Of a DNA stretch of 64,000 nt, positions 12,206 through 38,739 are shown piece by piece. The position numbers and the translations under genes are program-made. Below the pieces are notes generated by a model. The model worked only from the letters and a program-made list of their open reading frames with translations. It was not told where the DNA came from and did not search any database. The DNA lies in the NCBI GenBank assembly GCA_022827275.1, contig JAJDTG010000005.1, forward strand, positions 90,442-154,441, in the 5' to 3' direction. The stretch comes from Candidatus Dadabacteria bacterium (GTDB lineage: Bacteria; Desulfobacterota_D; UBA1144; Nemesobacterales; Nemesobacteraceae). Within the stretch, counting starts at the first letter, position 1. The number at the start of each line of letters is the position of its first letter.

Positions 12206-13653
12206 ATGTCCGAGGATAAGAAAAAAACCGGACCGTACTGGTGACAGGGGCAAGCGGTTACGTCGGCGGGCGCCTAGTCCCGGCTTTGGAGGAAAGGGGA
12301 GAGCGGGTGCGCTGTCTTGCCCGCAATCCCGGGTATCTCGCTGGTCGTTTCTCTCCCGATACCCGGATTATCGCCGGCGATGTGCTCGACCCGGATTCTC
12401 TTGAGACCGCGTTTGAGGGGGTGGACACGGCTTACTACATGGTCCATTCCATGGGTTCCGGGGACAACTTCGAGGAACAGGACCGTATCGGGGCCCGTAA
12501 TTTTGCCCGGGTTGCACGCCAACATGGGGTGCGTCGAATTATTTATCTGGGAGGCTTGGTCGGAGACGGCGAACTTTCCTCTCATCTGGCAAGCCGCAGG
12601 GAAGTAGGGGGTATCCTAGCCTCGGAAGGTCCCCTTGCCTTGGAATTTCGCGCTTCGATCATAATCGGCTCGGGATCGCTTTCTTTTGAGTTGCTGCGAA
12701 GCCTGGTTGACAGGCTGCCGCTGATGGTCACCCCCAGCTGGGTGAGAACTTTAACCCAGCCCATAGCCATTGAAGACGTAATAGCCTATCTCATTTGCGG
12801 TCTGGATCTGGAACTGCAGGACAGCGCGGTTTTCGAAATCGCCGGTCCCGACCAAGTCACCTACGGCGAATTGATGCAGGAGTACGCCCGCCAGATCGGC
12901 GTGCGGCGCTTCATGATTCCGGTGCCTGTACTGAGTCCCAATCTCTCGAGTCTCTGGCTGGGGCTCGTGACTCCCCTTTATGCGCGTGTGGGAAGGAAAC
13001 TCGTAGACGGCTTACGCAACGAGACCATTGTCCGCGATAAGGCGGCCCTGAACCACTTCCCGGTACGTCCCCTGGGAGTGCGCCAGGCGATAGACCGGGC
13101 TCTTAAGCGGGAGGATATGGAAGTGGCGCAGACTCGCTGGAGCGATGCCGTGTCTTCAAGCGGCAAACAGCAGTCTTGGGGAGGAAGGCGTTTTGGTTCT
13201 CGGCTTATTGACTGCCAGCAGGCCGTTGTCGACGTGGACCCCGCCCGAGCCTTTGCGCCCGTACGGCGCATCGGCGGGGACCAGGGCTGGTATTTTGCCA
13301 CCTGGATCTGGTATCTGCGCGGTCTGGTTGATCTGCTTCTGGGCGGAGTAGGCATGCGGAGGGGCAGGCGGCACCCGACCGACTTGCGCCCGGGCGATCC
13401 TCTGGATTTCTGGCGCGTTGAGGCGTATGAAGAGAATCGCCTGCTGAGTCTGAGAGCAGAGATGAAATTGCCCGGTCAGGCGTGGCTTCAGTTTGAAGTC
13501 GAACCCGCCGAAAAGGGCAGTTGGATAACGCAGACGGCCGTTTTCCAGCCTCTGGGCCTGGGCGGTCTGCTTTACTGGTATGGCCTTTGCCCCGTCCACT
13601 GGGTTATTTTCAGGCGGATGCTTAAGGAAATTGCGAAGCGCGTGGCTTATTAA
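12206..13653 (+). CDS. NAD(P)-binding SDR protein, YbjT/DUF2867 type, with A7 frameshift at the start
   Basis: The intact frame runs from GTG 12241 to 13653 (470 aa). It begins inside the first beta strand: the Rossmann motif should read TVLVTGASGYVGG, but GTG supplies only the last V of that strand. An ATG at 12206 opens MSEDKKK and runs into a seven-A tract (12221-12227). One extra A would join it to the main frame. The protein has YYMVHSMGSGDNFEEQDR and a C-terminal DUF2867 part, as in E. coli YbjT. Its function is unknown. It lies at the left edge of the sterol-type island, but no direct link is visible. Confidence 0.75.
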
Positions 13654-13783
13654 TTCCCTAAGGTATGCCCTCACCTGCGATGAAACTGAGCGAAAAACTG
13701 AAATTCCGCATTGCCGAGCAGAAGTGCGAACTGTCCGTCTTAAATGCGCCCGGGGTCGCCGGAGCGCTAGAAAATGCAGGGGT

Positions 13784-14806
13784 CTAGAGGGGTTTGCGTG
13801 TCAGGAAGCAATATAGGGGCGTGAAGATTCCGGTCCTGCCGCCCGCGATGTAGGCGTTGGCGGTCCGAGCGGTCAGCCTTGCGATTTCCGTAGAGCCTTT
13901 CGGGAACACCCCCAGTGTCTCGGCGAGCCTGGATGTCCCGATGAAAGTCTTACGGATCAGGGAACTGCTGCGTGGGGATTTGTCCAGCGTTCCGTGCCGG
14001 GTCTCCATGGGTTTATACCACGGCGTGGTCGAACCGTTCTCCTCGACGGCTCGGTCCACCCCCTCGACAACCTGGAATCCCGCGGCCTCAAGCGCCCGGT
14101 TCACCTCGCCCGTCGTCGCGATATCCCTGAGCGCAATGGAGTGCACCAATTCCTGCTTGATAGCCCGGTGCTGATTGTCGTCGGGATCGAACTTGTCCGT
14201 AACGCACATTTCCTGACCCCAGAAGAGGGCTCCGGGTTTCAGCACCCGGTAGATCTCGGCAAACGCGTCCGCCTTTTCTGGAGCATGACATGTCGATTCG
14301 ATTGCGTAGCCCCGGTCGAAGGTGTTGTCCGCGATGGCGCTCATGTCCATGAAGCTGCACGCGAGGTAGTCGACCATGTGGTCGAGCCCTGCCTCGACGT
14401 TCAATGATTTTGCCTTGTCCAGCTGGACTTCACTGTTGTTGACCCCGATTACCCTGACACCAGCCTCGCGGACGACGCGGCGCATCGGGCCGCCGACCCC
14501 GCAACCGATATCGACCACCGTCATCCCCTTGCGCAGATCCAGCTTGGCAATCATCAGCCGCTGATGCCGGATTATGGAGTCTTCCACGCTCTCGCGGGGG
14601 GACAGCGGCGCGAAGTGAAGGGATTCGCCCCAGCCGAACACCATGAACTCGTTGCATAGGTCGTAATATTCCTTGACGGTCTGGGTGTGGTCGTAACCTG
14701 CCCTCGTACCGGCATCCTCTGCGGCCGCCCTCTCGGTCCATCCATTGAAGTGTTGCACCCTGCGGGCGACGTCCGACCCGCTGTAGGCGATCTTCAGTCC
14801 GTTCAA
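13784..14806 (-). CDS. Sterol C-24 methyltransferase-like protein (SMT paralogue 1)
   Basis: This 340-residue class I methyltransferase belongs to the Erg6/SMT group. SMT region I reads VFGWGESLHF (56-65), SAM motif I is DIGCGVGGP (99-107), GVNNSEVQLDKA follows, and region II reads IESTCHAPEK (169-178). A C-terminal sterol-MT-like domain ends RTGIFTPLYCFLTRKPL. SMTs transfer methyl groups to C-24 of the sterol side chain. The open frame starts at TTG 14806, but an AGGGAG near 14833-14838 precedes an in-frame ATA (14824), so the true start is uncertain. It is the most divergent of the three SMT genes here and is divergent from the Rieske gene. Confidence 0.85.
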   Translation of the reverse strand: MNGLKIAYSGSDVARRVQHFNGWTERAAAEDAGTRAGYDHTQTVKEYYDLCNEFMVFGWGESLHFAPLSPRESVEDSIIRHQRLMIAKLDLRKGMTVVDIGCGVGGPMRRVVREAGVRVIGVNNSEVQLDKAKSLNVEAGLDHMVDYLACSFMDMSAIADNTFDRGYAIESTCHAPEKADAFAEIYRVLKPGALFWGQEMCVTDKFDPDDNQHRAIKQELVHSIALRDIATTGEVNRALEAAGFQVVEGVDRAVEENGSTTPWYKPMETRHGTLDKSPRSSSLIRKTFIGTSRLAETLGVFPKGSTEIARLTARTANAYIAGGRTGIFTPLYCFLTRKPL

Positions 14807-15257: not shown

Positions 15258-16301
15258 ATGAATCCAAACCCAAACGTGCGCAAGGATGAAGCCTTGCTTT
15301 ATCCATTTCCTGAGGGCTGGTATTTCGTCGCCAGCCGCAAGATGATTAAAAAAAAGGGACTCCTGAAGAGAACCTGGCTCGGAGAACAGGTTGTTGTCTG
15401 GTGCAACGGGGAGGGGGAAGTTTGCGTTGCTGAGGCGGTCTGTCCGCATCTTGGAGCCGATCTCGGTCCCGAGGTAGGGGGACGGGTGCACGACGGTTGC
15501 CTTGTATGTCCTTTTCACGGTTTCCAGTTTGACGTGAGCGGTCAATGCGTGGCGACACCATTCGCTCCTCCGCCAAAAACCGCCAAGCTTAAGGTGTTCG
15601 AGACACGTGAAATCGAGGGTCTCATCTTTGCATGGTGGGGCAGCGGCGGTCGGGAACCTCAATGGCACCTGCCCGAAATTTCCACAACTCATACCGACTG
15701 GAGCGGGATGGAGTTCTGCCACCTCCGTTTTCCGGGACATCCCCAGGAAACTACTGAGAACTCCGTGGATGTTGCACACCTTAACTATGTGCACCACTAC
15801 AACAGTGTGAACATTGTCGGTTCGATATCAATTGACGGCACCTTGCTCAGAAATTCCTTCAACTTCAAACGCGGCCTTACGGTTGCCGGCATCAAGCTTT
15901 TCGAGTACGACGTTTCTGCGGTCGCCAGCATACACGGGCTTGGCTATTCAATTGTCGAGGTTCACGAACATTCGATCAATATGGACACCCGCCTGTGGGT
16001 GCTTGCAACACCGATTGATGGCAAATTTATTGAAATGACCTTGGTGAGCCAAGTGCGGCAACTTCGTAATCTGAAGGGAGTGGGCCACGGGCTGCGGCTC
16101 CTTCCCCTAGGGCTCAGGACCCGCCTCATGAACAAGGTCCTCATTTCCTCCCAGGAGCATGACGTCATGCAGGATGTCGTCATCTGGAGCAATCTGAAAC
16201 ATCGGTCACTTCCGAGGCTTTGCAGTGTTGACGGCGATATCGGGAAGTATCGGCGCTACTGCAGGCAGTTCTATCCGGATGGTCAGTATTATAATCCGTA
16301 G
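15258..16301 (+). CDS. Rieske non-haem iron oxygenase (steroid/sterol oxygenase-like)
   Basis: This 347-residue oxygenase alpha subunit has an N-terminal Rieske [2Fe-2S] domain with CPHLGADLG (C62, H64) and CPFHGFQFD (C84, H87). The catalytic domain carries the mononuclear iron ligands in ENSVDVAHLNYVHH (D171, H174, H179), and a later Asp in SSQEHDVMQD is the likely third ligand. The architecture matches single-component steroid oxygenases (KshA, DAF-36/Neverland) and the bacterial C-4 sterol demethylase SdmA. The exact reaction cannot be decided from sequence. No ferredoxin or reductase partner lies nearby. It sits between SMT1 and the first RND exporter. Confidence 0.85.
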   Translation: MNPNPNVRKDEALLYPFPEGWYFVASRKMIKKKGLLKRTWLGEQVVVWCNGEGEVCVAEAVCPHLGADLGPEVGGRVHDGCLVCPFHGFQFDVSGQCVATPFAPPPKTAKLKVFETREIEGLIFAWWGSGGREPQWHLPEISTTHTDWSGMEFCHLRFPGHPQETTENSVDVAHLNYVHHYNSVNIVGSISIDGTLLRNSFNFKRGLTVAGIKLFEYDVSAVASIHGLGYSIVEVHEHSINMDTRLWVLATPIDGKFIEMTLVSQVRQLRNLKGVGHGLRLLPLGLRTRLMNKVLISSQEHDVMQDVVIWSNLKHRSLPRLCSVDGDIGKYRRYCRQFYPDGQYYNP

Positions 16302-16320
16302 AAGTATCTAGAGGATGTTT

Positions 16321-16378: not shown

Positions 16379-18709
16379 CTACGCGGTTGAGCCTCTCAAT
16401 CGTTCCCTGATCTGCTCGCTGGTTTCCTTGGTCTCGTCAAGCAGCATCAGAAGCGGTGGAAGGAAGAAAAAATCTGCCAGCAGGGCAATAATTACCGTTA
16501 TTCCCACCAAAAGACCAAGCACCTGGTTTCCCACCAACCCGGATGCTCCGAACACCATAAAGCCCAGCCCGAACACTACGGTAGTCGTAAACAGCGCCCT
16601 GCCCACAAAGCGAAAAGCTATTTGAACGGACTCCGAAGGCAGTTTCCCCGCCTTTCTGCTATCCGTGTATTTTGTCATGAAGTGGATGGTGTCGTCCACA
16701 ATGATGCCGAATGCTATAGCGGTGACGACCGCCGCCGGAACTCCTACATCTCCCACCAGATACCCCCACAGTCCCATGGCCATAGCGGCCGGAAGGAAAT
16801 TGGGGATCAGACTGACCAGCCCCAGGCGTATGCTTCTAAATATGGCGAACAGCAGCAGGGAAACGATGGCCATCGCCACAAAAGTGCCCTGCAGCATATT
16901 TTCAATGTTCCTCTGAATCGAATGAGACCCCACAATCGAAATTCCCGTAGCGCCGGTTTCCATGCTGGGGGCATTCTGCTGCAGCCACGCGCGTGCACGG
17001 TCGTCGAGATTAATCTTCTCCTTGCTGGACATACTCTTCACTGAGACCGTTACGCGTGTTGATCTCCGGTCATGGTCGATCAGATTGTTAAGGTCGCGGC
17101 CTATCGGGAGAGAAAACTCATAAAGCAAGAGATACTGCGCGGCGAGTTCAGGATCGTCGGGAAGCGCGTAGTAATCCGGGTCATCGCCATGCAGGTTCTT
17201 GTTCAGACGCTTCATGATGTCGGCAATTGAGAAGATATGGACAAATTCCGGTTGCTCCCGGTACCAATCCGCAAACGCTTCGACCTGTTTTAGGTACTCA
17301 ATGTCCGTGATGGCGCCCTCGCGGCCGGAATCCAGAGAGTACTCATAGGTTTCCACGCCAGGGAAGTTCTCGCTCAGGAAATCCGCGGACCGCCGGAACT
17401 CGTAACTCTCGTCAAGAACCTCAAGCCAGTTCTCCCTAAGTTCGATCTTGGAGATGCCGGCAACCAGAAAGACAGTCAGAATGCCAAAGAAACAAAGAAG
17501 GACCGTACGATAGGAGATGACAAAACGGCTGAGACGATCGAAAAAATCCTGTTTGTCTTCGCCTATTTTCCGGGGACGAATAGGTAGTATTGACAGGAAT
17601 GCGGGCAACAGAGTCACCGAAAAGACGAAAGCGCACATGGAACCGAACGCCACGATGTTACCCATGACCTTAAAGGGCGGCATATCTACGAAATTCAGGC
17701 TCAGAAATCCGATTGCAGTTGTGAACGAGGTAAGGAAAATAGGCCACACGTCCACTCGCACGGCATGGATTGCCGCTTCTGTTCTCGTCATGCCCTGGCG
17801 TAAGCCCCCGGACATTGCCTCGATAATGTGCACGGAGTGAGCGACGGTCACAGCCATCAGTACAAACAGTGCGGCACCGCTTTCACCAAACAGCTTTAAG
17901 CCTGTCCACCCGGCAAAGCCCAGCGCGGATGGGATGACGGCAACAATCATCAGCACAATGGCAAGTGTCCCCCATATCGAACGTATCAGAATCAAGGCGA
18001 CAAGCAGCATGGTTCCAAGAGCAATGGGCCCAAGGATGGCCGTTTCATCGTCAAGCGCGTCACCAATGACACGATTGAGGATGAGTCCGCCTAAAAGATG
18101 GTAGTCGATGGATGTATATTTCTCCCCGGCGGCGGCAGTAGTTTCATACAGGTAGTCGGTAACCTCTCGCTTGGCCAATTCCCGATTGTCGTCAGGAAGA
18201 GTAATGCTGACAACCAGGCCGGCAACTCGTCCGTCGCGGGAGACGAATCGCCCGGCAACTTCCTCAGTGCCGAGTGCGATATCCGTGATTCGTTGTATAT
18301 CGGTATCGCTCAGGGAACTGGCTTCGTCGATAAGCGGCTCAACAACCAGCTCATCTTCGAAACCCTCGCTATGTGTGTAGTTCGAGATAGAGTCGACACG
18401 GGTGGCGTACGGGGTGCGCCAAAGCTGCTCAGTCAACTCTTCAATGGCGACAAGCCTTTCCTGTGTGAAAATTGTGCCGTTATGCGGCGCTACGGCAACC
18501 AGTACAGCATCGGACAGTGCATATGTCTCTTCAAGCTGTTCCAGCGCTATGAGGTGTGGGTCGGATTCGCCAAAGTGGTTACGGAAGTCCACGTCCACCA
18601 CAATCAAACGCGCGGCTCCCGCGGCAAGGGCCAGCACAACAAGCAAAGAGATCAAAATGGTCAGCCAGCGGCGGGTGACGATCATTGAGATGCAAGATTC
18701 TAGGTTCAT
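16379..18709 (-). CDS. RND/MMPL-family exporter 1
   Basis: This 776-residue inner-membrane protein shows the RND layout: TM1 at the N-terminus, a large periplasmic loop, five TM segments, then a second repeat of the same. The second half has GIIVDDTIHFMTKYTD, the proton-relay motif of MMPL/HpnN-type transporters. The first half has TVAHSVHIIEAMSGG at the matching place. No membrane-fusion protein or TolC partner is adjacent. MMPL/HpnN relatives move lipids, and the RND protein BstA moves sterols in Methylococcus. Within this island a sterol or sterol-derivative substrate is a reasonable inference. Confidence 0.85.
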   Translation of the reverse strand: MNLESCISMIVTRRWLTILISLLVVLALAAGAARLIVVDVDFRNHFGESDPHLIALEQLEETYALSDAVLVAVAPHNGTIFTQERLVAIEELTEQLWRTPYATRVDSISNYTHSEGFEDELVVEPLIDEASSLSDTDIQRITDIALGTEEVAGRFVSRDGRVAGLVVSITLPDDNRELAKREVTDYLYETTAAAGEKYTSIDYHLLGGLILNRVIGDALDDETAILGPIALGTMLLVALILIRSIWGTLAIVLMIVAVIPSALGFAGWTGLKLFGESGAALFVLMAVTVAHSVHIIEAMSGGLRQGMTRTEAAIHAVRVDVWPIFLTSFTTAIGFLSLNFVDMPPFKVMGNIVAFGSMCAFVFSVTLLPAFLSILPIRPRKIGEDKQDFFDRLSRFVISYRTVLLCFFGILTVFLVAGISKIELRENWLEVLDESYEFRRSADFLSENFPGVETYEYSLDSGREGAITDIEYLKQVEAFADWYREQPEFVHIFSIADIMKRLNKNLHGDDPDYYALPDDPELAAQYLLLYEFSLPIGRDLNNLIDHDRRSTRVTVSVKSMSSKEKINLDDRARAWLQQNAPSMETGATGISIVGSHSIQRNIENMLQGTFVAMAIVSLLLFAIFRSIRLGLVSLIPNFLPAAMAMGLWGYLVGDVGVPAAVVTAIAFGIIVDDTIHFMTKYTDSRKAGKLPSESVQIAFRFVGRALFTTTVVFGLGFMVFGASGLVGNQVLGLLVGITVIIALLADFFFLPPLLMLLDETKETSEQIRERLRGSTA

Positions 18710-19747: not shown

Positions 19748-21973
19748 TTAGGAAGAAGCAGTTGCCGAATCCTCGCCTTCTGCCGTCTCTTCTGGAATAT
19801 CAATCACTTGATTAGCTTGGGGGTCAAGCGGCAAGTCAACAATCATATCTGTATATTCGCCTTCCTCCGTTTCTACGCGAAACTCACCGCCGTGCTGTCG
19901 TACTATGTCGTTGGACAGCGATAATCCCAGACCTGTCCCTTTATCCGTGGGTTTCGTTGTATAGAACGGATTAAAGATACGCTCCAATGCAGATTGGGGA
20001 ATGCCGGTTCCATTGTCACGAACATGTATCTCAATACGATCACCAACCAGCCGCGTACTCAAATTAAGCGTCGGTTGATAATCCTTCTTTGACGCATCGT
20101 CGGCAGCAGCCAGTTTTTTTCGTTTTTCGTCCGCGGCATAGCAGGCATTGGTTACCAGATTTAGGAAAACCCGGCCAATGTCTTGCGGTTGCACGGTGAT
20201 CTCTCCTATATCCGGCGAATAGTCTTCTTGTATTTCCAGCTGGAAGTCAGGGTCGGCGGCGCGAGCACTGTGGAACGCAAGCAACGCATGCTCGTTAAGC
20301 AATATGCTGAGGTCAGTTGGTTGCCATTCCCCGCCACCACGACCCATCTTGAGCATGTCTGTTATAATTCGGTTCGCACGAGTTCCATGCTCGTGGATGC
20401 GCTTCAGATTTCCTGTCAAATCCTCGACTACTTCCTCGACTAACTCCGGATCGTATTCCTCTTTTGCGTCCCCGTTAGCCTCCATTTTGGCTACCTCTTC
20501 CAGCAGTTCTTCCAGCAGTTCTTGTGAAACCTCTGAGAAGTTCATGATGAAGTTCATGGGATTTTTGATTTCGTGCGCGACCCCGGCTGTCAACTGGCCA
20601 AGCGCGGCAAGCTTCTCCCGCATCACAATCTGGTCCTGAGCCCGTTTCAACTCTTCGTTAGTATGTGCTAGCTCCTCGTTTTTTTCCTGCAGTTGGTTAG
20701 CGAGTGTTTCTACAAGATTAAGGCGCTGTACTTCCAGTGCGTTATATCGGAACACCTCAAGCGCCTTGGCTAGTTGCGCGATTTCGTCATTACCTCTGGT
20801 GTCGACGGTTATTTCCAGGTTTCCATCAGCCATTTCCTGCATTTGACTCGATATCCGTTCCAGACGCCGAATCAGGCGGCGTTGTACAAACAGCCATCCC
20901 AGCAAGATTCCACCACTTATACTGACGATATTGAAAGCCAGCAGGACTTTCGTGCTGGTAGCAGTTACGGCGGCCGCTTTGCTCGCCATCTCCCCTGCAG
21001 CCATGCTTGAATCATTTACAACCCTTTCTACTCGCGCTACGATGTCAATTCCTAAAGCCTGATTTTTGAGGAGTAGGGCGGATAATTCATCGTCAACTGC
21101 AAGTTCCCGGCTGCGCAGGTCGAATCCGTTGTTTTCCCTTCTCCCGAATGAGATCAGGTCTTCGAAAATCCCAGACAGCTGGTCATGAAGGTCGCTTCCC
21201 TCCTGTTCGTATTTCTCAAGCGCATCAAGTGATCGGCTGGTGCTGCCGGCTGCGGCTTCGAACCGTTCTCGCAATGGCTGAAGCATGGCCGCCTCGGTCA
21301 CTACAAACGTGGTTGCAAGCAGCTGCGAAGCGACTACAGCCGCTTCACGAAGTTCAAACAAGCGGCGATAGATCAGGAATTCCGGTTCGGAGAAATGAAC
21401 CGAGCGGGGAGATTGCGCTGCATCAAGAGACCGGTGTCCGGTCATTACATAGAACATCTGATCGTCGATCTCGTTAATTATAATCGGCGTTATTTTACTT
21501 TGGATACCCTGAAGCTCGTCTCTAAGATTGAGACTGCTCTCGCGAAGGTCGAAACGTTCCCTGACAAGCAATTTGATTCGCTCAATGTTCTGGATTATGG
21601 CGACCCCGTCAGATTGAATCTGCCGCGCTTGTTCGCTTTCTCCCTGATTTTCCATCATTGCCGAGAGTTGTGTTTTAAATGCATCCGCCTGCAGGTCGAC
21701 CGTCTTGGATACGGTCCTGAACTGCTCAGGCGTGCTCGCGGTGAGTCGGGGAGCGGCGGCTACGAGCATGGCTGTCTGCTGGGCGATTGCAAACGCCGAT
21801 GTCATCTCGGGTATGTTCTTTTCATTAACGTTTTGCTGAACTTTGCCGATTTGGCTAAGGAAGAAAAGAGCCATCAAACTGACGATGATGATGAGCACTA
21901 CAGCACCTGCGTAACTTATATAAAGTTGCGTGGAAATCTGCGTAGAAATTTTGTTCCAGAGTTTTGAAAGCAT
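19748..21973 (-). CDS. Membrane sensor histidine kinase (TorS-like sensor part)
   Basis: This 741-residue kinase has TM1 at ~19-39, a ~300-residue periplasmic alpha-helical region, TM2 at ~343-363, a HAMP domain (~360-412) and a coiled coil to ~450. A HisKA domain follows with H467 in GVAHEIKNPMNF. The HATPase_c domain has NLVTNACYAADE, DNGTGIP and GTGLGLSLSND. A helical periplasmic sensor with a neighbouring binding protein recalls the TorS/TorT arrangement. No receiver domain is attached, so the partner is probably the upstream response regulator. It follows the binding-protein gene by 40 nt. Confidence 0.92.
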   Translation of the reverse strand: MLSKLWNKISTQISTQLYISYAGAVVLIIIVSLMALFFLSQIGKVQQNVNEKNIPEMTSAFAIAQQTAMLVAAAPRLTASTPEQFRTVSKTVDLQADAFKTQLSAMMENQGESEQARQIQSDGVAIIQNIERIKLLVRERFDLRESSLNLRDELQGIQSKITPIIINEIDDQMFYVMTGHRSLDAAQSPRSVHFSEPEFLIYRRLFELREAAVVASQLLATTFVVTEAAMLQPLRERFEAAAGSTSRSLDALEKYEQEGSDLHDQLSGIFEDLISFGRRENNGFDLRSRELAVDDELSALLLKNQALGIDIVARVERVVNDSSMAAGEMASKAAAVTATSTKVLLAFNIVSISGGILLGWLFVQRRLIRRLERISSQMQEMADGNLEITVDTRGNDEIAQLAKALEVFRYNALEVQRLNLVETLANQLQEKNEELAHTNEELKRAQDQIVMREKLAALGQLTAGVAHEIKNPMNFIMNFSEVSQELLEELLEEVAKMEANGDAKEEYDPELVEEVVEDLTGNLKRIHEHGTRANRIITDMLKMGRGGGEWQPTDLSILLNEHALLAFHSARAADPDFQLEIQEDYSPDIGEITVQPQDIGRVFLNLVTNACYAADEKRKKLAAADDASKKDYQPTLNLSTRLVGDRIEIHVRDNGTGIPQSALERIFNPFYTTKPTDKGTGLGLSLSNDIVRQHGGEFRVETEEGEYTDMIVDLPLDPQANQVIDIPEETAEGEDSATASS

Positions 21974-22013: not shown

Positions 22014-23213
22014 TCAGTATCGTCGTGTTAGAGTCGTGAGAGGCGTATACTGGCCATCAGGACCAATAATCGTCAAGAACACGCTGTCTGAGCCTTGATT
22101 GTCATTCTTGCTATATCGCAAGGTGAAGCCGTCCAAATTAATGTTGTTGCCAGTCCGCAGCACCGCGTCGATGCAATCGCGGTTAACCTGTTTGCCGCAA
22201 TTGTCTACTACATAGATAGCCAAACGCCCTGCTAAATATCCTTCATACGATATAAATCCGGGTTTTGCCGCCGGATCGTACGCCTTGAGCGCAGCACGAT
22301 AGGAAGCGGAAGCGGGCACCGTGTTTCCGGTTGGAAAAGGAACCACCTGCGTAACTAGAACTCCGGCTCCTTGATCACCCAGTTCGCTTGCCAAGGCATT
22401 GCTGCCTACGAAAGAAAGTGTCATAAAAATGGAATTCATGCCGATGTGGCGTGCCCACTTAATAAATGTCGCAGTTGGCTTGTAGGGACCAATAATGATC
22501 ACAGCTTCCGGTCCGGTGGCACGTAAATCAAGAAGCGCCGTCTTTATCGCGACAGTATTGCGAGAAAATATCCCCGTTCCGATAGTAGAAAGTTTGCGAC
22601 GTTCAAGAGCAAGAAGTATCCCTTGCAACCCGGCGCGACCGAATGAATCATCCTGATAGAGAATGGCAATGCGATTAATTCCGAGATCAGTCGTCAATCG
22701 TTCTACCATCTCCTCGGTTTCTTGATAATACGAAGCCCGAAGGTTGATTACTGTCCGGCGTGCATTGTCACGCAGGAATTCTGCACCGGTCATAGGAGCT
22801 ATGTAAGGTACATCGTGTTCCTCCGCGACAGGTACCGCAGCTTTGGAGGTAGGAGTGCCAACTGCGCCGATGAGTGCGAAAACCCTCTCACCAATCAGTT
22901 GCTGCGTATTTACGATTGCCGCCTCCGGTTCGTATGCGTCATCCAATGATCGCAGTTCCAGGCGACGTCCGTTAACGCCACCCCGGTCATTAACCTCTTT
23001 AAACGCGGCAAGAATGCCGACTTGCATGCCTTTACCAAGCTCGCTAGCTGGCCCACTGAAGGCAGCGGACTGACCAAAGACAATACGATCACTGTATACG
23101 CCCGGCACGGCGCGTGGTTGTTGTTGGGCTTCCCCTGACGCTACGCTTGTCAGTATTGCAACTATTGAAGCGGCAATCACTTTTTTGAGAGACAGTCTGC
23201 TTAATAACCGCAT
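22014..23213 (-). CDS. Periplasmic binding protein, branched-chain amino acid (Peripla_BP_6) type
   Basis: This 399-residue protein has a signal peptide (KKVIAASIVAILTSVASGEAQ) and the type I periplasmic binding fold: VFGQSAAFSGPASELGKGMQVGI, the ligand-region loop GAVGTPTSKAAVPVAEEHDVPYI, and NRIAILYQDDSFGRAGLQG. No ABC permease or ATPase is nearby. It lies between an RsbW-like kinase (10 nt upstream) and a histidine kinase (40 nt downstream), so it is more likely a signal receptor for the kinase than a transport component. The ligand is unknown. Confidence 0.88.
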   Translation of the reverse strand: MRLLSRLSLKKVIAASIVAILTSVASGEAQQQPRAVPGVYSDRIVFGQSAAFSGPASELGKGMQVGILAAFKEVNDRGGVNGRRLELRSLDDAYEPEAAIVNTQQLIGERVFALIGAVGTPTSKAAVPVAEEHDVPYIAPMTGAEFLRDNARRTVINLRASYYQETEEMVERLTTDLGINRIAILYQDDSFGRAGLQGILLALERRKLSTIGTGIFSRNTVAIKTALLDLRATGPEAVIIIGPYKPTATFIKWARHIGMNSIFMTLSFVGSNALASELGDQGAGVLVTQVVPFPTGNTVPASASYRAALKAYDPAAKPGFISYEGYLAGRLAIYVVDNCGKQVNRDCIDAVLRTGNNINLDGFTLRYSKNDNQGSDSVFLTIIGPDGQYTPLTTLTRRY

Positions 23214-25963: not shown

Positions 25964-26004
25964 CGACCTGCCGTACCTTCAGCAACCGGGATGCCGGGGC
26001 TGTT

Positions 26005-31234: not shown

Positions 31235-32236
31235 TCACCCCGGTTTGCGCGCCTTGTGGTAGTACATGGGCGTAACAATTCCCAGGCGTCCTGCGGCCAA
31301 GAGGCTGTCGGCCACGACATTGATAATTTTCCGTGCCTCGGACGACCCCTTGGGTACGGCGCGTACGCCTTCCAGAACGGGGAGAACCGCCGAAGCGATT
31401 TTTCGGCCAAGGGCCGTTCTCGAGAGACTCCTCAGATCCAGGTTGCCCCCTTCCAGCGGTTGATACCACGGCGTCTTGGGGTTGGCGTCAAGAGCGCGGT
31501 CACGCGCCTCGACAAGTTCGAAACCGACTGCCCGCAGGCTGTCGTCTACCTCCGTGAATGAAGCGATTTCCGGAAGAGCGGAGACGTATTCGTTTATTTC
31601 CTTGAGTTCCCGGTGCTTAGGATTTCCGCCGTCGTAAAGCGGGGTCATGCACACATCGTAGCCGACGAAGATCGCACCGGGGCGCAATACACGGAATATC
31701 TCGGCAAAGGCTGCGGTCTTATCCGGCGCATGACACAGGGCCTCGATATGGTAGGCCGCGTCGAAGCTTCCGTCTTCCGCCGGTATATTCAGGAAATCGC
31801 CGTGCAGGACGCTGCAGAGATGGTCCAGGCCAGCCTCGCTGTTATACACAGAGCACTTCCCGAGCTGATATTCGTTGATGTTTAGGCCCACGATCGAAGC
31901 GCCGAATTTTCCTGCGAGGGAGCGTTGGGGTCCGCCCACGCCGCATCCGACATCAAGCACCTTCATGCCCGGCCTCAATCCAATGGCTTCGCCCAGAAAA
32001 TACTCATGGTTGGCAATGGATTCCTCGAAAGACACCCCCGGATCCATCAGTGCGAAGTGAATCGACCGCCCCCATCCACGCTCGCAAAAGTCGGTAATGA
32101 GGTTGTAAAATGCCGTCACCGTGCTGGCGTACTCTTCCTTGCTCATCCCCTGGCTTCTGCGGTACTTCAACAGCCTTTCCATAATATCATCCGGCTGAAC
32201 TGCATTTGAAACTGCGTTATGGGAGTCATCTGCCAC
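31235..32236 (-). CDS. Sterol C-24 methyltransferase-like protein (SMT paralogue 2)
   Basis: GTG 32236 is chosen because GGAGGG lies 9 nt before it and the N-terminus then aligns without gaps to SMT3; ATG 32263 lacks a ribosome-binding site. The 333-residue enzyme has altered region I (CERGWGRSIHF, 51-61, against YEYGWG-FHF in eukaryotic SMTs), SAM motif DVGCGVGGP (95-103), and region II IEALCHAPDK (164-173). The C-terminal sterol-MT domain ends GRLGIVTPMYYHKARKPG. The central ~100 codons are almost identical in nucleotide sequence to SMT3, which points to recent duplication or gene conversion. Confidence 0.87.
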   Translation of the reverse strand: MADDSHNAVSNAVQPDDIMERLLKYRRSQGMSKEEYASTVTAFYNLITDFCERGWGRSIHFALMDPGVSFEESIANHEYFLGEAIGLRPGMKVLDVGCGVGGPQRSLAGKFGASIVGLNINEYQLGKCSVYNSEAGLDHLCSVLHGDFLNIPAEDGSFDAAYHIEALCHAPDKTAAFAEIFRVLRPGAIFVGYDVCMTPLYDGGNPKHRELKEINEYVSALPEIASFTEVDDSLRAVGFELVEARDRALDANPKTPWYQPLEGGNLDLRSLSRTALGRKIASAVLPVLEGVRAVPKGSSEARKIINVVADSLLAAGRLGIVTPMYYHKARKPG

Positions 32237-32480
32237 TTGTGTTTCCCTCCGTGGAATCTTCATATATGAAAGACTTCTTATTACCTTCTGATTTTTTCTA
32301 AATTTTGGGAAACGATCTTATCCAATTTCCTTCAACGGGTCAAAATATTCTTCGGATCGCCAAGCCCGTTTTTTTCAGAACCTCGATAAAACCAGATTTG
32401 AATATAATTCTGCTTCAGAACCCGGAACGCGGGAATTTAGGTTACTATATTCTTAAGTAAAAGGCTCACGCACTAATATC

Positions 32481-33827
32481 ATGTCGTTTGAAAAGACCCA
32501 GCGCCGGATTCTCAAAAATCCGTTCACCTCACCCGGTGAGACCGGCAAGAGCGTTCCGGTTTCAATCCTCTCAGCGATTTTAGCGGTGGTGCTGGGGATT
32601 ATTGTTTCGGTGTTCCCGACCGTAGCGTACCCGGCCGGCTTCACCGACGAGGTTGATATCTCCGGGCGCCTCTCGACTGAGACTTGGCTGTATCCCCAGA
32701 GCGCCGCGTATCCCGACCAGCGTTCGTATGCCGGCGGGCTTGCCCTGGAGACAACGTTCTATGTTGAGAGCGAGGAAGGCACAAGCATAACGGTTACTCC
32801 CTTTTTGCGGTACGATGCCGGGGACCCGGATCGCACGTACGGTGATTTCCGTGAGGCCTATCTGCTGATGTACGGCGATATTGGCGACGGTGAATGGGAA
32901 TTGCGTCTGGGCATCGATCGGGTGTTTTGGGGCGTCACGGAGTTGCGTTCCCTGGTGGATATCATCAATCAGACCGATGTTATTGAACACCCGAACGAAA
33001 AGATAAAGATGGGTCAGCCGATGGCCCATCTCACTTGGTCGGGTGACTGGGGAGCACTGGAATTTTTCGCGACGACATGGCACCGTGCGCGCACCTACCC
33101 GGGCCCGCGTGGTCGCCAGCGGTATGAGTTCATTGTGGACCAGGATATGATTTCATACGAATCCGGTGCGAAAAAGTGGAATATTGATCTCGCCAGCCGG
33201 TACAGCGGCTTATTCGGGCCGCTCGAAATTGGTCTAAGCGTGTTTGACGGTACGAACCGAGAGCCCACTCTCTTGCCGATATTTCTCGACTCCGGATTGG
33301 TCCTGGCTCCACATTACGAGAAGATTCGCCAATTCGGTGTGGATGCACAGCTTAACAGGGGCTCTTTGCTGCTCAAGCTGGAAGCGATCTACCGCGCCGG
33401 CGCGAGGAACAGCAGGTACATTCAACACCTCAATACCTTAGAGGAAGAGGACTATGCGGCTTTTATCTTGGGTAGCGAGTACACGCTCTATTCCGTATTG
33501 GGTTCGAACTCTGATCTGGTCCTGTTTGCCGAATGGGCTTACGATGGACGTGGGCGGTGGGCAACCAATGCATTCGAGAACGACCTGTTCATTGCCGCAC
33601 GTCTCGGGTTGAACGATCCGCATGGCACCGAATTTGTCGTCAGTGTTTTAGGTTCCCTCAACAAGAGCAGTCGCGTCCTCGCAGGCGAGTTCAAGCGTCG
33701 CCTTTCTTCGGACAACTGGCTTCTGCATATTGAGACCTCAGTTTTTCTGGATATCGACGAAGACGACTTCATATACTACGTGCGGCGCGACAGCTACGTG
33801 AAGATCAATCTGGCCTACAGTTTCTGA
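32481..33827 (+). CDS. Outer-membrane beta-barrel protein (DUF1302-like)
   Basis: This 448-residue protein has a long N-terminal region with a hydrophobic signal (SILSAILAVVLGIIVSVFP, cleavage near AYPAG) and a mature part made of regular beta strands ending YVKINLAYSF, with the C-terminal aromatic residue of outer-membrane proteins. Strands such as FREAYLLMYGD and WELRLGIDRVFWGVTE resemble DUF1302-type barrels found beside RND exporters and LolA-like proteins in lipid and hydrocarbon clusters. It could be the outer-membrane step of sterol trafficking. Family placement is tentative. Confidence 0.75.
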   Translation: MSFEKTQRRILKNPFTSPGETGKSVPVSILSAILAVVLGIIVSVFPTVAYPAGFTDEVDISGRLSTETWLYPQSAAYPDQRSYAGGLALETTFYVESEEGTSITVTPFLRYDAGDPDRTYGDFREAYLLMYGDIGDGEWELRLGIDRVFWGVTELRSLVDIINQTDVIEHPNEKIKMGQPMAHLTWSGDWGALEFFATTWHRARTYPGPRGRQRYEFIVDQDMISYESGAKKWNIDLASRYSGLFGPLEIGLSVFDGTNREPTLLPIFLDSGLVLAPHYEKIRQFGVDAQLNRGSLLLKLEAIYRAGARNSRYIQHLNTLEEEDYAAFILGSEYTLYSVLGSNSDLVLFAEWAYDGRGRWATNAFENDLFIAARLGLNDPHGTEFVVSVLGSLNKSSRVLAGEFKRRLSSDNWLLHIETSVFLDIDEDDFIYYVRRDSYVKINLAYSF

Positions 33828-34077: not shown

Positions 34078-35079
34078 GTGGGGATTAGCTTCCATAACCC
34101 AATTTCGAAAGCGGTTCGGCCGGAGGACACGGCGGAGACTCTGTCTGAGTACCGCAGAAGCCAGGGGCGGGGCAAGGAAGAATACGCCCGCATGGTAACG
34201 GCGTTTTACGACCTCATTACCGACTTTTACGAGTATGGATGGGGGCAGTCATTTCACTTCGCGCCGATGAAGGTGGGGGAGTCTTTCGAGGAAGCCATCG
34301 TCGGCCATGAATATTTTCTGGGCGAAGCCATTGGATTGAGGCCGGGCATGAAGGTGCTTGATGTCGGATGCGGCGTGGGCGGACCCCAGCGCTTTCTCGC
34401 AGGAAAGTTCGGCGCTTCGATCGTGGGCCTAAACATCAACGAATATCAGCTCGGGAAGTGCTCTGTGTATAACAGCAAGGCTGGCCTGGACCATCTCTGC
34501 AGCGTCCTGCACGGCGATTTCCTGAATATACCGGCGGAAGACGGGAGTTTCGACGCGGCTTACCATATCGAGGCAATGCCTCATGCACCGGATAAAACCG
34601 CCGCTTATGCCGAAATATTCCGCGTATTGCGCCCCGGTGCGGTCTTCGCAGGCTACGACTGGTGCATGACTCCGCTTTACGACGGCGCGAACCCCGAGCA
34701 TCGGGAACTCAAGACAGGAATCGAATACGGCAACGCTCTTCCGGAAATCGCTTCATTCACGGAGGTAAACGACAGCCTGCGGTCGGTCGGTTTCGAACTT
34801 GTCGAGGCGCATGACCGCGCCTTGGACGCCAACCCCAAGACGCCGTGGTATCAATCGCTTGAAGGCAATGGCCTGAAGCTCAGGAGTTTCCCGAGAACGT
34901 CCCTTGGCCGCAGAGTCACCTCGGCGGCCCTGCGCGTTCTGGAAAGCGTACGCGCCGTACCCAGGGGATCGTTCGAGGTGCAGAAGATTCTCAATATCGC
35001 GGCCGACAGCTGCGTGGCCTCAGGACGTCTTGGGATTTTTACGCCCATGTACTACCACAAGGCGCGCAAACCGGGGTGA
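34078..35079 (+). CDS. Sterol C-24 methyltransferase-like protein (SMT paralogue 3)
   Basis: This 333-residue enzyme starts at GTG 34078 with GGGGAGGGG just upstream; the nearby ATG 34074 stops after four codons. Region I is canonical (YEYGWGQSFHF, 51-61). The SAM site is DVGCGVGGP (95-103). Region II reads IEAMPHAPDK (164-173), with Pro where other SMTs have Cys in CHAP. The C-terminal sterol-MT domain ends GRLGIFTPMYYHKARKPG. It has the most eukaryote-like sterol-binding region I of the three paralogues. A LolA-like protein and an RND exporter follow on the same strand. Confidence 0.88.
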   Translation: MGISFHNPISKAVRPEDTAETLSEYRRSQGRGKEEYARMVTAFYDLITDFYEYGWGQSFHFAPMKVGESFEEAIVGHEYFLGEAIGLRPGMKVLDVGCGVGGPQRFLAGKFGASIVGLNINEYQLGKCSVYNSKAGLDHLCSVLHGDFLNIPAEDGSFDAAYHIEAMPHAPDKTAAYAEIFRVLRPGAVFAGYDWCMTPLYDGANPEHRELKTGIEYGNALPEIASFTEVNDSLRSVGFELVEAHDRALDANPKTPWYQSLEGNGLKLRSFPRTSLGRRVTSAALRVLESVRAVPRGSFEVQKILNIAADSCVASGRLGIFTPMYYHKARKPG

Positions 35080-35173
35080 CACGTACGGTAATAGAGTCCG
35101 ATGCAAACACTATGCGGGCCTGCGGTGACCGTGTCGGCAAGCCGCCAGCCGCGGTACTATTCCTTCTCCACCG

Positions 35174-35197
35174 TGTGCCGCTCGATGTCAAGCGGCA
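35174..35197 (+). terminator. Hairpin after SMT3
   Basis: GTGCCGCT (35174-35181) and AGCGGCAC (35190-35197) form a perfect 8-bp stem with an 8-nt loop, 95 bp after the SMT3 stop and before the LolA-like gene. It lacks a T-tract, so it could be a weak terminator or an operator. Confidence 0.3.
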
Positions 35198-35319
35198 CTT
35201 CCAGATCTATATGGAATCAAGGTAAAATCATACAATCAAGCCGTTGCTTGATCATGTCTCCATACACCAGATTTGACTATATCTCCGGTTTTGTTTATAT
35301 CCATTAGCAGGAGAAACCA

Positions 35320-36141
35320 ATGATTAAGTCTTCAATCTCGCGCACAATGCTTGCGCTCCTTGGGAGCTTTCTTGCAATTTGTTTCTGGCCGGCTGAGTCG
35401 CATTCCGATCTTCTGAGTGGTACCGCTGAGGAAGTGGGTCTCAAGGTTGCAACCGAAGCTCGTGAGAACCAGAAGGGTTTCGGCAATTTCACCGCGAACC
35501 TGACCATGACGCTACGTAACAAGCAGGGGCAGGAAAGCCAGCGTTCACTTCGCCTCAAACTCATCGAAATCCCGGAGGACGGGGATCGAACTCTGTTTGT
35601 GTTTGACCACCCGAAGGATGTCAAAGGGACCGCCTTTCTCGTCCACGCCCACAAGGATGGGCCAGACCAACAGTGGCTCTATCTTCCAGCCCTGAAACGG
35701 GTGAAGGGCATCAGCGCCTCAAAACAATCCGGCTCTTTCATGGGCAGTGAGTTCTCCTACGAGGACATGGGAGCAGTTGAGGTTGGGAAATTTACTCACC
35801 GGTTCCTTCGTGAAGAGCCCTGCGGTGATCTCAAGTGCTTGGTTCTGGAACGTATCCCGAAAAGTGAGGATTCCGGGTACTCACGCCAGCTGGTTTGGCT
35901 CGACCGCGAGGAACTTCGAACAATTCAGGTCCACTACTTCGATCGCAGGAATGAGCACCTCAAGACGATGGTCGTGGAGGGCTATGCAAAATACCTTGAT
36001 CGATTTTGGCGGAGCAGCACTATAACGATGACAAACCTTCTGACGGGCAAGAGTACCGTGCTGCTATGGTCAGACTACAAGTTCGGGACCGATCTCGACG
36101 CCAAGGACTTTACCAAAACAGCGCTAAAGCGGATACGGTAG
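35320..36141 (+). CDS. LolA-like outer-membrane lipoprotein-sorting protein
   Basis: This 273-residue periplasmic protein has a signal peptide (MLALLGSFLAICFWPAESHS). The LolA-like half-barrel fold has LTMTLRNKQGQESQRSLRLK, FVFDHPKDVKGTAFLVHAH, QQWLYLPALKRVKGIS and FMGSEFSYEDMG. These motifs are typical of the LolA-like proteins coupled to MMPL/RND exporters, where they probably ferry a hydrophobic cargo across the periplasm. CAGGAGA precedes the ATG. It lies 231 bp before RND exporter 2 and likely works with it and the outer-membrane barrel. Confidence 0.88.
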   Translation: MIKSSISRTMLALLGSFLAICFWPAESHSDLLSGTAEEVGLKVATEARENQKGFGNFTANLTMTLRNKQGQESQRSLRLKLIEIPEDGDRTLFVFDHPKDVKGTAFLVHAHKDGPDQQWLYLPALKRVKGISASKQSGSFMGSEFSYEDMGAVEVGKFTHRFLREEPCGDLKCLVLERIPKSEDSGYSRQLVWLDREELRTIQVHYFDRRNEHLKTMVVEGYAKYLDRFWRSSTITMTNLLTGKSTVLLWSDYKFGTDLDAKDFTKTALKRIR

Positions 36142-36372
36142 AGAGAATTTCTTGACTGCCCTGTCCGGTTTGTTGCCCGCCGGAGTGACTGCAGCTGAAG
36201 TTGGGCGAATATACCACTAGACGAACGGAGAGTTTCCGTAAGTTGGATTCAGCAAGCCCATGAAAAACAGCGGAATACCGATGCCCTCGACCCTTCCTAC
36301 AACCGATGACCCAGGATCTGGGGGCGTAGCCCTTGGTCCTGAGCGCAAGTCAAATTCCCTGTTTTGGCAATA

Positions 36373-38739
36373 ATGAAATTGCTGAGAGATATAGAATCAC
36401 GGCTGGGCAACTGGGCCATCACGCTTCGGTGGCCGATCATCGTCGTCGCCATTGTCTTGACCGGGATTGCAACAAGCGGCACGTTGTTGCTTGAGTTCTC
36501 GACTGACCACCGCGTCTACTTTTCCAAAAACAACCCTCAGCTCTTGGCATACCAGGAGATGGAGGACACGTACGGCAAGAGGGACAACGTTTTTTTCGCC
36601 ATCGCGCCGGAGGATCGAGACGCCACATCGGCTCTCGCCCTTGAAGCCACTGCGTGGCTCACCGAACAGGCTTGGCAGGTCCCATTCGCGAGCCGCGTCG
36701 ATTCCATTACCAACTTTCAGCATACCACAGCCGCTGGCGACGAGATACTTGTGCGTGAACTGGTGGACGGGAATACCTACAGTGATGCCGAAGAGCGGTC
36801 ACGGATTCGCGAAATCGCCCTGGCGGAACCGGCCCTTGCGGGGCGCCTGCTGGCACGCGACGGCGGTGTTTCGGGAATAAACGTCACATTGCAGTTGCCG
36901 GGTGAGGACCAGATGCGCGAAGGTGCGGAGGTTACTGAGCACTCACGGAAACTTGCGAATGAGTTTCGGGAGCGTTTCCCCGGCATTGATTTGCTGTTGG
37001 CTGGAATGGTGGTTTTTAACCAGGCCTTTATGGAAGCGTCGCTGGACGATCTTCGGACGCTCATCCCGGTGAGTTTCTTGGCAATGGCGTTCATGCTTCT
37101 GTTGCTGACGCGGGGATTTTCAGGAACGTTCGCAATAATGCTAGTCGTGACGATGTCGGTAATGACCGCTGTGGGCCTCGGGGGCTGGGTAGGACTTCCA
37201 ATGACATCGCCTTCTGCGGTCGCCCCGGTTGTCATACTGACGGTAGCTATTGCCAGCTGCGTCCACATCTATTCCACTTTTATCAACTACATGCATGATG
37301 CGGCGTCCGGCACGTCTGAGAATCGCGGCAGCAGGACCAAGCAGGATGCGATCGTCGAGTCGATTCGGGTGAATCTTCAGCCGGTCTTCCTGTCGAGCCT
37401 GACCACCACGCTCGGCTTTTTGAGCTTGAACTTCTCCGATTCGCCCCCTTTTCGTCATTTAGGCATCTTCGTTGCATTTGGGGTCGGTGCAGCGTTCGTG
37501 CTTTCCATAACTTTTCTGCCAGCGTTGCTCTCGCTGTTGCCGGTTCGGGTACGTGCATCCCTGCCTCGAGAGAATTCTGTAATAGAAATGTTCGGCAAGT
37601 TCGTTGTACGCCGAAGCCGGCAATTGCTCTGGGGTTCCGGGCTAATCGTGGTAGTGCTTGTAGCATCGATTCCCCAGAACGAGCTAAACGATGTCTTCCT
37701 CCACTACTTTGACGAGAGCGTCGAATTCCGAAAAGACTCCGACTTCATCGTGAACAACCTCACCGGTTTGTATGCCATGGAGTACTCGCTCCCATCGTAC
37801 TCCCAAGGTGGGATCAGCGACCCGGCGTATCTCTCCGATGTCGAAGCGTTTGCCGAGTGGTACAGGGGACAACCTGAAACCATACACGTAAATGTCATCA
37901 CCGATACCTTCCGACGGCTAAACAAGAGCATGAACGGAGACGATCCCGCCTATTACCGGTTACCGACAAACCGGGAGCTTGCTGCGCAGTACCTGCTTCT
38001 CTACGAGATCTCTCTACCCTATGGTTTTGATCTCAACAATCAGATCGACGTCGACAAGTCATCCACCCGGATGGTAGTGAGAACGCAGACGCTCTCATCA
38101 AACGAAGTGATCGCGCTTGATCAGCGCGCACAGCAATGGCTCGCAGGCTACGCGCCAAATATTGCCGGTACGGTGAGCTCCGGCACCACGTTGATGTTTG
38201 CCAATCTCGGCCGCCGAAATATCATCTCTATGCTCGCTGGAACCACACTCGCCCTCGTTGGAATTTCCTTCGTTCTCATCTTCGCATTGCGATCATGGCG
38301 ACTCGGAATCATGAGCATGGTCCCAAACCTGATTCCCGGGGCATTGGGCTTCGGTATATGGGGTTTGACAGTCGGACAAGTGGGAGTATCGCTTTCAATG
38401 GTAACGGCCATGACGTTGGGTATTGTGGTCGACGATACTGTCCACTTTCTCAGCAGGTACCAGCGGACCCGACGCGAACTCGGTTCCACCTCTGCTGACG
38501 CGGTACTGACTGCCTTCCGAACCGTGGGTCAGGCACTGCTTACGACCTCGCTTGTGCTTGTGGCAGGCTTTGTCGTGGTGAGTTTTTCCAGTTTCGAACT
38601 CAATTCAGCGATGGGCAAGCTCACAGCGCTTGTAATCGCTTTGGCCCTAATAGCCGATTTCCTTCTCCTGCCGCCGCTTCTCGTGAAGTTCGACGTGAAT
38701 GGACGTCCCGTCTTCTCTGAGAGGCGGTTATCAGGGTGA
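36373..38739 (+). CDS. RND/MMPL-family exporter 2
   Basis: Starting at ATG 36373 (a TTG nine bases upstream is also possible) the protein has 788 residues with the same two-fold RND plan as exporter 1. The second TM block has GIVVDDTVHFLSRYQRTRR, and the first has TVAIASCVHIYSTFINYM. Shared segments with exporter 1 include LLEFSTDHRVYFS-type N-terminal loops and a closely similar ELAAQYLLLYEISLP. The two are clear paralogues. Adjacency to the LolA-like gene suggests transfer of a hydrophobic molecule to a periplasmic carrier. Confidence 0.87.
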   Translation: MKLLRDIESRLGNWAITLRWPIIVVAIVLTGIATSGTLLLEFSTDHRVYFSKNNPQLLAYQEMEDTYGKRDNVFFAIAPEDRDATSALALEATAWLTEQAWQVPFASRVDSITNFQHTTAAGDEILVRELVDGNTYSDAEERSRIREIALAEPALAGRLLARDGGVSGINVTLQLPGEDQMREGAEVTEHSRKLANEFRERFPGIDLLLAGMVVFNQAFMEASLDDLRTLIPVSFLAMAFMLLLLTRGFSGTFAIMLVVTMSVMTAVGLGGWVGLPMTSPSAVAPVVILTVAIASCVHIYSTFINYMHDAASGTSENRGSRTKQDAIVESIRVNLQPVFLSSLTTTLGFLSLNFSDSPPFRHLGIFVAFGVGAAFVLSITFLPALLSLLPVRVRASLPRENSVIEMFGKFVVRRSRQLLWGSGLIVVVLVASIPQNELNDVFLHYFDESVEFRKDSDFIVNNLTGLYAMEYSLPSYSQGGISDPAYLSDVEAFAEWYRGQPETIHVNVITDTFRRLNKSMNGDDPAYYRLPTNRELAAQYLLLYEISLPYGFDLNNQIDVDKSSTRMVVRTQTLSSNEVIALDQRAQQWLAGYAPNIAGTVSSGTTLMFANLGRRNIISMLAGTTLALVGISFVLIFALRSWRLGIMSMVPNLIPGALGFGIWGLTVGQVGVSLSMVTAMTLGIVVDDTVHFLSRYQRTRRELGSTSADAVLTAFRTVGQALLTTSLVLVAGFVVVSFSSFELNSAMGKLTALVIALALIADFLLLPPLLVKFDVNGRPVFSERRLSG

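Follow-up and report, generated by a model that had tools for sequence, protein, structure and literature searches.

A 64,000-nucleotide stretch of DNA (the window) from a Candidatus Dadabacteria draft genome (GenBank assembly GCA_022827275.1; 1.77 Mb, 25 contigs, 95.7% complete) carries, at positions 13784-38739, an island of three sterol methyltransferases (SMTs), an ERG4/ERG24-family reductase, a KshA-like Rieske oxygenase, an FAD oxidoreductase and a P450, together with two MMPL/RND transporters, a LolA-like carrier, a predicted outer-membrane barrel, a TPR protein and a signalling operon. The island is conserved within its genus, in which no sterol-making core was found; several of its genes have relatives in other phyla and, in one Nitrospirota locus, such relatives adjoin a complete sterol cluster. 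On the strength of these sequence comparisons, we consider it probable that the island is a sterol-tailoring, transport and sensing module of a likely sponge-associated genus, acting on imported sterols.

Sterol methyltransferases and the missing sterol-making core

Domain searches and structure models found every gene family named in an earlier note on this DNA in its place, and the P450 proved, as the note had not stated, to be fused to GPP34. The genes are as follows (strand in brackets):

12241..13653 (+), SDR (NAD_binding_10) and DUF2867 protein, beside SMT1 also in genomes G005 and G006
13784..14806 (-), SMT1, class A sterol methyltransferase (Sterol_MT_C, E 3.4e-13)
15258..16301 (+), Rieske oxygenase with KshA_C domain (Rieske and KshA_C, E 4.5e-25)
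16379..18709 (-), MMPL_A, MMPL/HAE3-like RND transporter
19748..21973 (-), sensor histidine kinase with HAMP and a TorS-sensor-like N-terminal part (below the Pfam cut-off)
22014..23213 (-), periplasmic binding protein (Peripla_BP_6)
23224..23658 (-), RsbW-like HATPase_c_2 protein
23658..24815 (-), response regulator-SpoIIE phosphatase
25172..25963 (+), TPR protein with N-terminal hydrophobic segment (weak Pfam matches and structure model)
26005..27360 (-), FAD amine-oxidase-family oxidoreductase
27639..29657 (-), GPP34-cytochrome P450 fusion, the sole P450 of the genome
30011..31150 (+), ERG4/ERG24-family reductase, probably of a second subfamily (ERG4_ERG24, E 7.8e-32)
31235..32263 (-), SMT2, class B sterol methyltransferase
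32481..33827 (+), predicted outer-membrane beta-barrel, without Pfam match
34078..35079 (+), SMT3, class B sterol methyltransferase (Sterol_MT_C, E 2.8e-20)
35320..36141 (+), LolA-like periplasmic carrier (PF17131, LolA_like, E 1.3e-59)
36364..38739 (+), MMPL_B, MMPL/HAE3-like transporter with a Sterol-sensing domain match

An open reading frame (ORF) at 25960-26514, antisense to the FAD gene, was dropped as probably spurious. The island hardly stands out by base composition (GC content 0.52, against 0.50-0.51 in its flanks).

Across the genome, the Sterol_MT_C domain scores above its curated cut-off of 21.7 bits at three places, all of them inside the island (SMT1 49.9, SMT2 52.4 and SMT3 72.6 bits), and in none of 14 control genomes. 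With their S-adenosylmethionine (SAM) fold, this places the three proteins in the sterol C-24 methyltransferase family, as the earlier note had proposed, with activity predicted from sequence. All three contain GWG, GCGVGG and HAP, the first (in region I) and last of which we take to be SMT motifs. Region I itself differs among the copies (MVFGWG in SMT1, CERGWG in SMT2 and YEYGWG in SMT3). SMT2 and SMT3 are 79% identical, SMT1 and SMT3 40%; in the former pair the SAM-binding core is nearly identical and the divergence lies in region I and next to the HAP motif, as if the substrate pockets had diverged or gene conversion had kept the core alike.

An SMT tree built by a quick search with a single long-branched outgroup, and holding 63 of 91 collected rows after duplicate removal (fragments included, no eukaryotic SMTs), splits into class A (SMT1) and class B (SMT2, SMT3 and the SMTs of cyclase clusters), with support of 92 and 91. 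Among the 63 rows, GWG is present in 51, GCGxGG in 59 and ExxxHAP in 51. Class A sequences from the genus stand at two places within their class and that of G003 at a third, which fits more than one acquisition.

The core that would supply sterols to these enzymes was not found. A squalene-hopene/oxidosqualene cyclase domain is missing from all 13 same-genus genomes, including the one-contig G006 (91% complete), and matches one of the 14 controls; a squalene/phytoene synthase domain is likewise missing from all 13 and matches seven of the 14. No squalene epoxidase domain was found in the window's own genome, the one genome searched for it, and CYP51 is absent there, the single P450 being the GPP34 fusion. 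That fusion was rejected as a CYP51 on its match to a solved CYP51 (1.5e-19, against 1.3e-103 for the P450 beside the cyclase of Nitrospirota locus L150, our positive control). The earlier suggestion of a complete alkylation pathway therefore fails, and with no core found in the genus the enzymes are predicted to act on sterols of the host or of neighbouring symbionts.

Conservation in the genus and relatives in other phyla

Sterol_MT_C was detected in 12 of the 13 same-genus genomes and in none of 47 other relatives; the reductase in 11 of the 13, the 47 giving one marginal match of 83 residues. The GPP34-P450 fusion is full length in eight of the 13 and partial in two, while in the other 47 genomes GPP34 and P450 gave separate matches, none of which covers the two together. 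G005 preserves the gene order, as does G006 apart from a relocated reductase, so that the transport and signalling genes stay clustered with the tailoring genes, as the earlier note had them, and clustering is beyond chance. In G006, a 119-codon frame with a Sterol_MT_C match lies between the LolA-like and barrel genes, where the window has SMT3 (L158:9630-9788; G006:C1:497630-497788). The reductase is 90-93% identical in seven Candidatus Dadabacteria loci (L030-L036) from metagenome-assembled genomes (MAGs). The MAG name prefixes RHO, COS, SB066 and APA presumably denote sponge bins; a sponge (Spongia) is named for L051 only, among the MAG records shown. We regard the genus as likely to be sponge-associated.

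Loci with the reductase were collected from MAGs, the best 80 of 176 being kept (reductase 73-93% identical; ten phyla named, four of the 80 without phylum), with phyla assigned through NCBI names, where Dadabacteria appear as Thermodesulfobacteriota. Seven of the 73 non-Dadabacteria loci—Chloroflexota L076, L081, L083, L084, L085 and L096 and Gemmatimonadota L074—carry the GPP34-P450 and the FAD oxidoreductase, always together (hypergeometric p 6e-10, a value that overstates independence because the six Chloroflexota loci form one clade of the reductase tree). An SMT is present in six of these seven, as is a KshA-like Rieske gene. Further regions hold other combinations: GPP34-P450, SMT1, Rieske and FAD enzyme in Nitrospirota L156; GPP34-P450, class B SMT, TPR and MMPL in Nitrospirota L162; GPP34-P450, class B SMT, Rieske and FAD enzyme in Binatota L151; and SMT1, class B SMT, Rieske, GPP34-P450, TPR, MMPL, barrel and LolA-like genes in Nitrospinota L155, in whose stretch the FAD enzyme was not found. 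GPP34-P450 fusions lie beside sterol genes in four phyla (window 27639-29657, L150:1276-3345, L155:16101-18146 and L085:2901-4928).

In Nitrospirota L150, each of the five tailoring genes is present, along with a class B SMT and a TPR gene. One 20-kb stretch contains relatives of the GPP34-P450 (61% identical), SMT1 (71%), the KshA-like Rieske protein (67%) and the FAD enzyme (85%), together with a class B SMT (51%), next to which stand SdmB-like and SdmA-like genes, a C14-reductase, CYP51, a squalene epoxidase-oxidosqualene cyclase fusion (L150:14375-18001, 1208 aa) and then the TPR gene (49%). The fusion corresponds in type to MsbE, which was described from Melophlus (PMC7074536, as far as its available text goes); the 3765-position LSS alignment of PMC9531527, in the part available, suggests that the same fusion was entered there under the name LSS.

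Submission of 50 of the 80 loci gave 49 genomes, among which nine had an oxidosqualene-cyclase-type match, 40 had Sterol_MT_C and 32 had Sterol_MT_C without a cyclase-type match, the last being a count of detections, with MAG completeness not shown, that includes a 25-position match (G066) and a genome with a weak cyclase-family match (G083). The 32 comprise, among others, all six Dadabacteria searched, the module-bearing genomes of Chloroflexota (six) and Gemmatimonadota (G102), and Nitrospinota G076. Matches to PF13249 were told apart by score: values of about 1e-106 to 1e-120 were read as squalene-hopene cyclases, and the 1e-41 to 1e-48 range, with nine matches, as oxidosqualene cyclases. 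One of each was checked (L119, TIGR01507, 720 bits, above cut-off; L150, TIGR03463, 728 bits, below the cut-off of 851). Four Acidobacteria genomes (G078, G079, G081 and G083) matched at 1e-8 to 1e-10 and fall in neither class.

The window's ALAD served as housekeeping control; of 43 genomes from outside Dadabacteria, 39 gave a match to it, at 44-57% identity. The reductase (73-85%), the FAD enzyme (74-85% in other phyla) and SMT1 (67-77% in Gemmatimonadota, Chloroflexota, Nitrospirota and Nitrospinota) lie above this range, which suggests transfer of these three genes; the KshA-like Rieske protein (57-67%) lies slightly above it. The GPP34-P450 is 58-63% identical in the seven Chloroflexota and Gemmatimonadota loci and two Nitrospirota loci, and 30-41% in L151, L155, L156 and L163. 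The reductase tree needs 17 phylum changes, where the minimum possible is nine and the shuffled mean 47.8; Dadabacteria form one clade (SH-aLRT 99), with one Gemmatimonadota sequence as neighbour (87). This points to a strong phylum signal, yet with several likely cross-phylum transfers.

The reductase, the oxidising enzymes and the transport proteins

The reductase belongs to the ERG4/ERG24 family (PF01222, 111 bits against a cut-off of 27) and keeps the SGxWG, RHxNYxGE and CxxKYG positions; four of 88 rows, which lacked the anchor motif, were left out of the tail-motif comparison. Its closest solved relative is 4quv (E 8.4e-32), and both solved relatives at E up to 1 are Δ14-sterol reductases, with no isoprenylcysteine methyltransferase among them, so that the earlier assignment to a sterol family holds. 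Within that family, the protein is not grouped with the C14-reductase found next to CYP51 and the cyclase in published clusters, by tree, identity or coexistence. Seven of the eight cyclase-bearing genomes with a fetched cluster region have a cluster-type reductase 31-33% identical to the window's (in the cyclase stretch in six, on another contig in G072), and the same seven carry an orthologue of the window's reductase, 77-85% identical, on a different contig. The cluster reductase of L150 scores 232 bits against the 4quv structure and the window's 114 bits, and the tree separates the two groups with SH-aLRT 100. Because of this split, the lower score and the coexistence, the window's enzyme is likely to represent a second subfamily rather than the C14-reductase of sterol clusters. 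From its position beside SMT2, we infer that it may reduce a side-chain double bond.

Three candidates were discarded: the 8,14-sterol reductase of PMC13277303 as a relative of this enzyme (NTF2 superfamily, according to the available text), and, as CYP51/OSC-type candidates, L092_6 (by its coordinates a long antisense ORF over the reductase) and L077_14 (a peroxidase). Tandem reductase pairs occur in Chloroflexota L091, L097 and L107, with a response regulator-SpoIIE gene upstream, and L085 has two reductase ORFs side by side. Four Chloroflexota loci have a homologue of the window's response regulator-SpoIIE phosphatase upstream of the reductase.

The Rieske protein, with both Rieske and KshA_C domains, has KshA as its nearest solved relative (4qdf, E 5.7e-22). 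It shares these two domains with KshA 3-ketosteroid 9α-hydroxylase; unlike that enzyme's gene, it sits with alkylation genes and is common to a biosynthetic cluster. The earlier note had proposed comparison with SdmA; the Rieske protein and the SDR were rejected as SdmA (NF052579) and SdmB (NF052578), reaching 34 and 36 bits against cut-offs of 600, and the L150 homologues, at 415 and 303, also stay below. GPP34 in eukaryotes is a Golgi phosphoinositide-binding family. We found no report of a GPP34-P450 fusion among 12 listed papers of 6,467 in the open-licence literature; one of the 12, on an insect genome, contains GPP34.

Both transporters have the MMPL domain, and the Sterol-sensing domain (cut-off 22.3 bits) matches MMPL_B above (40.4 bits) and MMPL_A below (19.7 bits) threshold. 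BstA (NF045600, cut-off 1400 bits), also proposed for comparison, matches MMPL_A at 34.8 bits and MMPL_B not at all, and HpnN (TIGR03480, cut-off 751.85) matches them at 88.8 and 85.2 bits. Relatives of MMPL_A are 49% identical in L155, whose MMPL protein has a Sterol-sensing match above cut-off, and 51% in L162. An AlphaFold2 model of the barrel is largely beta (mean pLDDT 64), with porins and AlgE as Foldseek matches; the Nitrospinota (L155) homologue matches DUF1302 weakly, below cut-off. The TPR protein has no sequence match to BstC, and its model (pLDDT 80) resembles TatT/BstC (7t1s) among other TPR folds; relatives 48-51% identical occur in L150, L155, L157 and L162.

Directly behind the island, as part of it or as a plain neighbour, lies a β-oxidation operon (38824-42874: acyl-CoA dehydrogenase, 3-hydroxyacyl-CoA dehydrogenase, enoyl-CoA hydratase and thiolase), which is kept beside it in G006 (L158). 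Elsewhere in the window are an AbiEi-type antitoxin gene (991-1776), an AAA ATPase and VWA (CoxE-like) pair (48005-50068) and, behind tRNA-Cys and tRNA-Leu, a TonB-dependent receptor (51215-53659) that might offer a further uptake route. Rfam at gathering scores gave two tRNAs and nothing else in the whole window.

Known systems, competing readings and implications

The rarity claimed for the locus has to be qualified: both SMTs and sterol clusters of sponge symbionts are already published (PMC10070321, PMC9531527 and PMC7074536). The comparisons with papers that follow refer to the text of each that was available. Brown et al. (2023; PMC10070321) report three single SMTs that make 24-isopropyl sterols. 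Two come from a metagenome of Aplysina aerophoba; the third, found in a Chlamydiae MAG without other sterol genes, is discussed as possibly acting on host sterols. The island's SMTs share enzyme family and niche with these; the difference is that Brown et al. describe single SMTs or sterol clusters, and the island groups its SMTs with genes for a reductase, for oxygenases and for transport and signalling, without the core. Their main text makes no mention of Dadabacteria. Kelly et al. (2022; PMC9531527) describe C14-reductase-CYP51-LSS clusters (CSG) in ten phyla of Ircinia symbionts, often with an SMT at the cluster edge, and infer their horizontal transfer. L150 contains a core of this type. 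The defining genes of CSG/msb clusters (PMC9531527 and PMC7074536) are C14-reductase, CYP51 and (epoxidase-)cyclase, all of which the window lacks; its reductase is of another subfamily, and the GPP34-P450/KshA-Rieske/FAD combination goes unmentioned in both papers. The BstA/B/C sterol transport system of Methylococcus (PMC10942540) likewise pairs an RND-type membrane protein with periplasmic carriers, and the island's TPR model is BstC-like; unlike it, the island has no BstA equivalog and no BstC sequence match, and has LolA-like and barrel proteins instead. Among the open-licence papers listed, where one sponge genome note was the single match for Dadabacteria with sponge and sterol, we found nothing in print on this module or on sterol genes of Dadabacteria, and the cyclase-free module appears to be new.

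Our proposal for substrates, products and direction of transport runs as follows. Sterols would enter through the barrel, and the BstC-like TPR and LolA-like proteins would shuttle them between the outer membrane and both MMPL transporters. The three SMTs, whose region I motifs differ, may add methyl groups stepwise at C-24 of Δ24 and Δ24(28) side chains, after which the second-subfamily reductase would saturate a non-Δ14 double bond, most probably one in the side chain just formed. Oxidation or desaturation of the nucleus or side chain could fall to the KshA-like Rieske protein, the GPP34-P450 and the FAD oxidoreductase, one of which might also introduce the Δ24 bond that the SMTs require. 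Ligand would activate the system by way of the binding protein, histidine kinase, RsbW-like protein and SpoIIE regulator.

Several observations weigh against this reading. The island has no proven desaturase to supply the Δ24 bond, no redox partner for the Rieske protein or P450 was identified, and the positional specificity of the reductase is a prediction. A second ERG4/ERG24-family reductase, 32% identical and possibly cluster-type, occurs in G002 (G002:C10:117628-118653) and G004 (G004:C6:980-1999). The number of Sterol_MT_C places per same-genus genome ranges from 0 to 4, and the G005 stretch lacks SMT3 while G006 retains a 119-codon remnant in its place, so three-step alkylation is no fixed trait. 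Relatives of the class B SMT, TPR, MMPL and barrel proteins, at about 48-54% identity, show no excess over the ALAD control; outside the genus, among the loci examined, barrel and LolA-like genes occur in L155 only and MMPL genes there and in L162, which makes the link between the transport and tailoring halves of the island less widespread. In the fold comparison of the TPR model, PTPIP51 and a TPR protein from Thermus lie within 1 Z of BstC and so tie with it. The assemblies are drafts, and the search for squalene epoxidase covered one genome.

We regard it as unlikely that the island serves sterol catabolism, with the KshA-like Rieske protein, the P450 and the neighbouring β-oxidation operon degrading host sterols for growth and the SMTs only conditioning side chains. 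The Rieske enzyme's closest match among solved structures, KshA, and the operon that follows the island and is conserved beside it in L158 would fit such a role; the methyltransferases and reductase are biosynthetic in kind, however, the tailoring genes adjoin a complete biosynthetic cluster in L150, and none of the four β-oxidation genes has a relative exceeding 50% identity among the 73 other-phylum loci. Rather less likely still is that the substrates are imported non-sterol isoprenoids, such as hopanoids or other triterpenoids. Family names are no proof of substrate, and module-bearing bacteria are able to make hopanoids (a squalene-hopene cyclase lies in L119, which comes from the genome of L081); against this, the enzymes belong to the Sterol_MT_C and ERG4/ERG24 families and are linked to oxidosqualene cyclase and CYP51 in L150, and with no squalene/phytoene synthase domain in 13 genomes of the genus any triterpenoid would need import. 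De novo synthesis by a core lost from the assemblies is very improbable, for even with drafts 89-97% complete an assembly gap could hide a cyclase and squalene synthase in one genome, but hardly in 13, one-contig G006 included.

The module acting on imported sterols thus remains our preferred reading, and the island defines a gene set to go with it: second-subfamily reductase, GPP34-P450, KshA-like Rieske protein, FAD enzyme and class A SMT. More tentatively, and with greater doubt than confidence, we raise the idea of a divided assembly line in sponge communities, in which cyclase-bearing Nitrospirota, Binatota and others make sterols, and cyclase-free Dadabacteria, Nitrospinota and Chloroflexota with only a horizontally shared tailoring module import these or host sterols and carry out up to three alkylations on them; 24-alkylated, even 24-isopropyl, sponge biomarkers might then be finished by bacteria unable to make sterols. 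Evidence for the earliest animals is drawn from C-24 alkylated steranes, 24-isopropylcholestane foremost. If our reading is true, bacteria can remodel the sterols of a host or neighbour in place, and cyclase genes alone would not reveal which microbes shape the sterol record.

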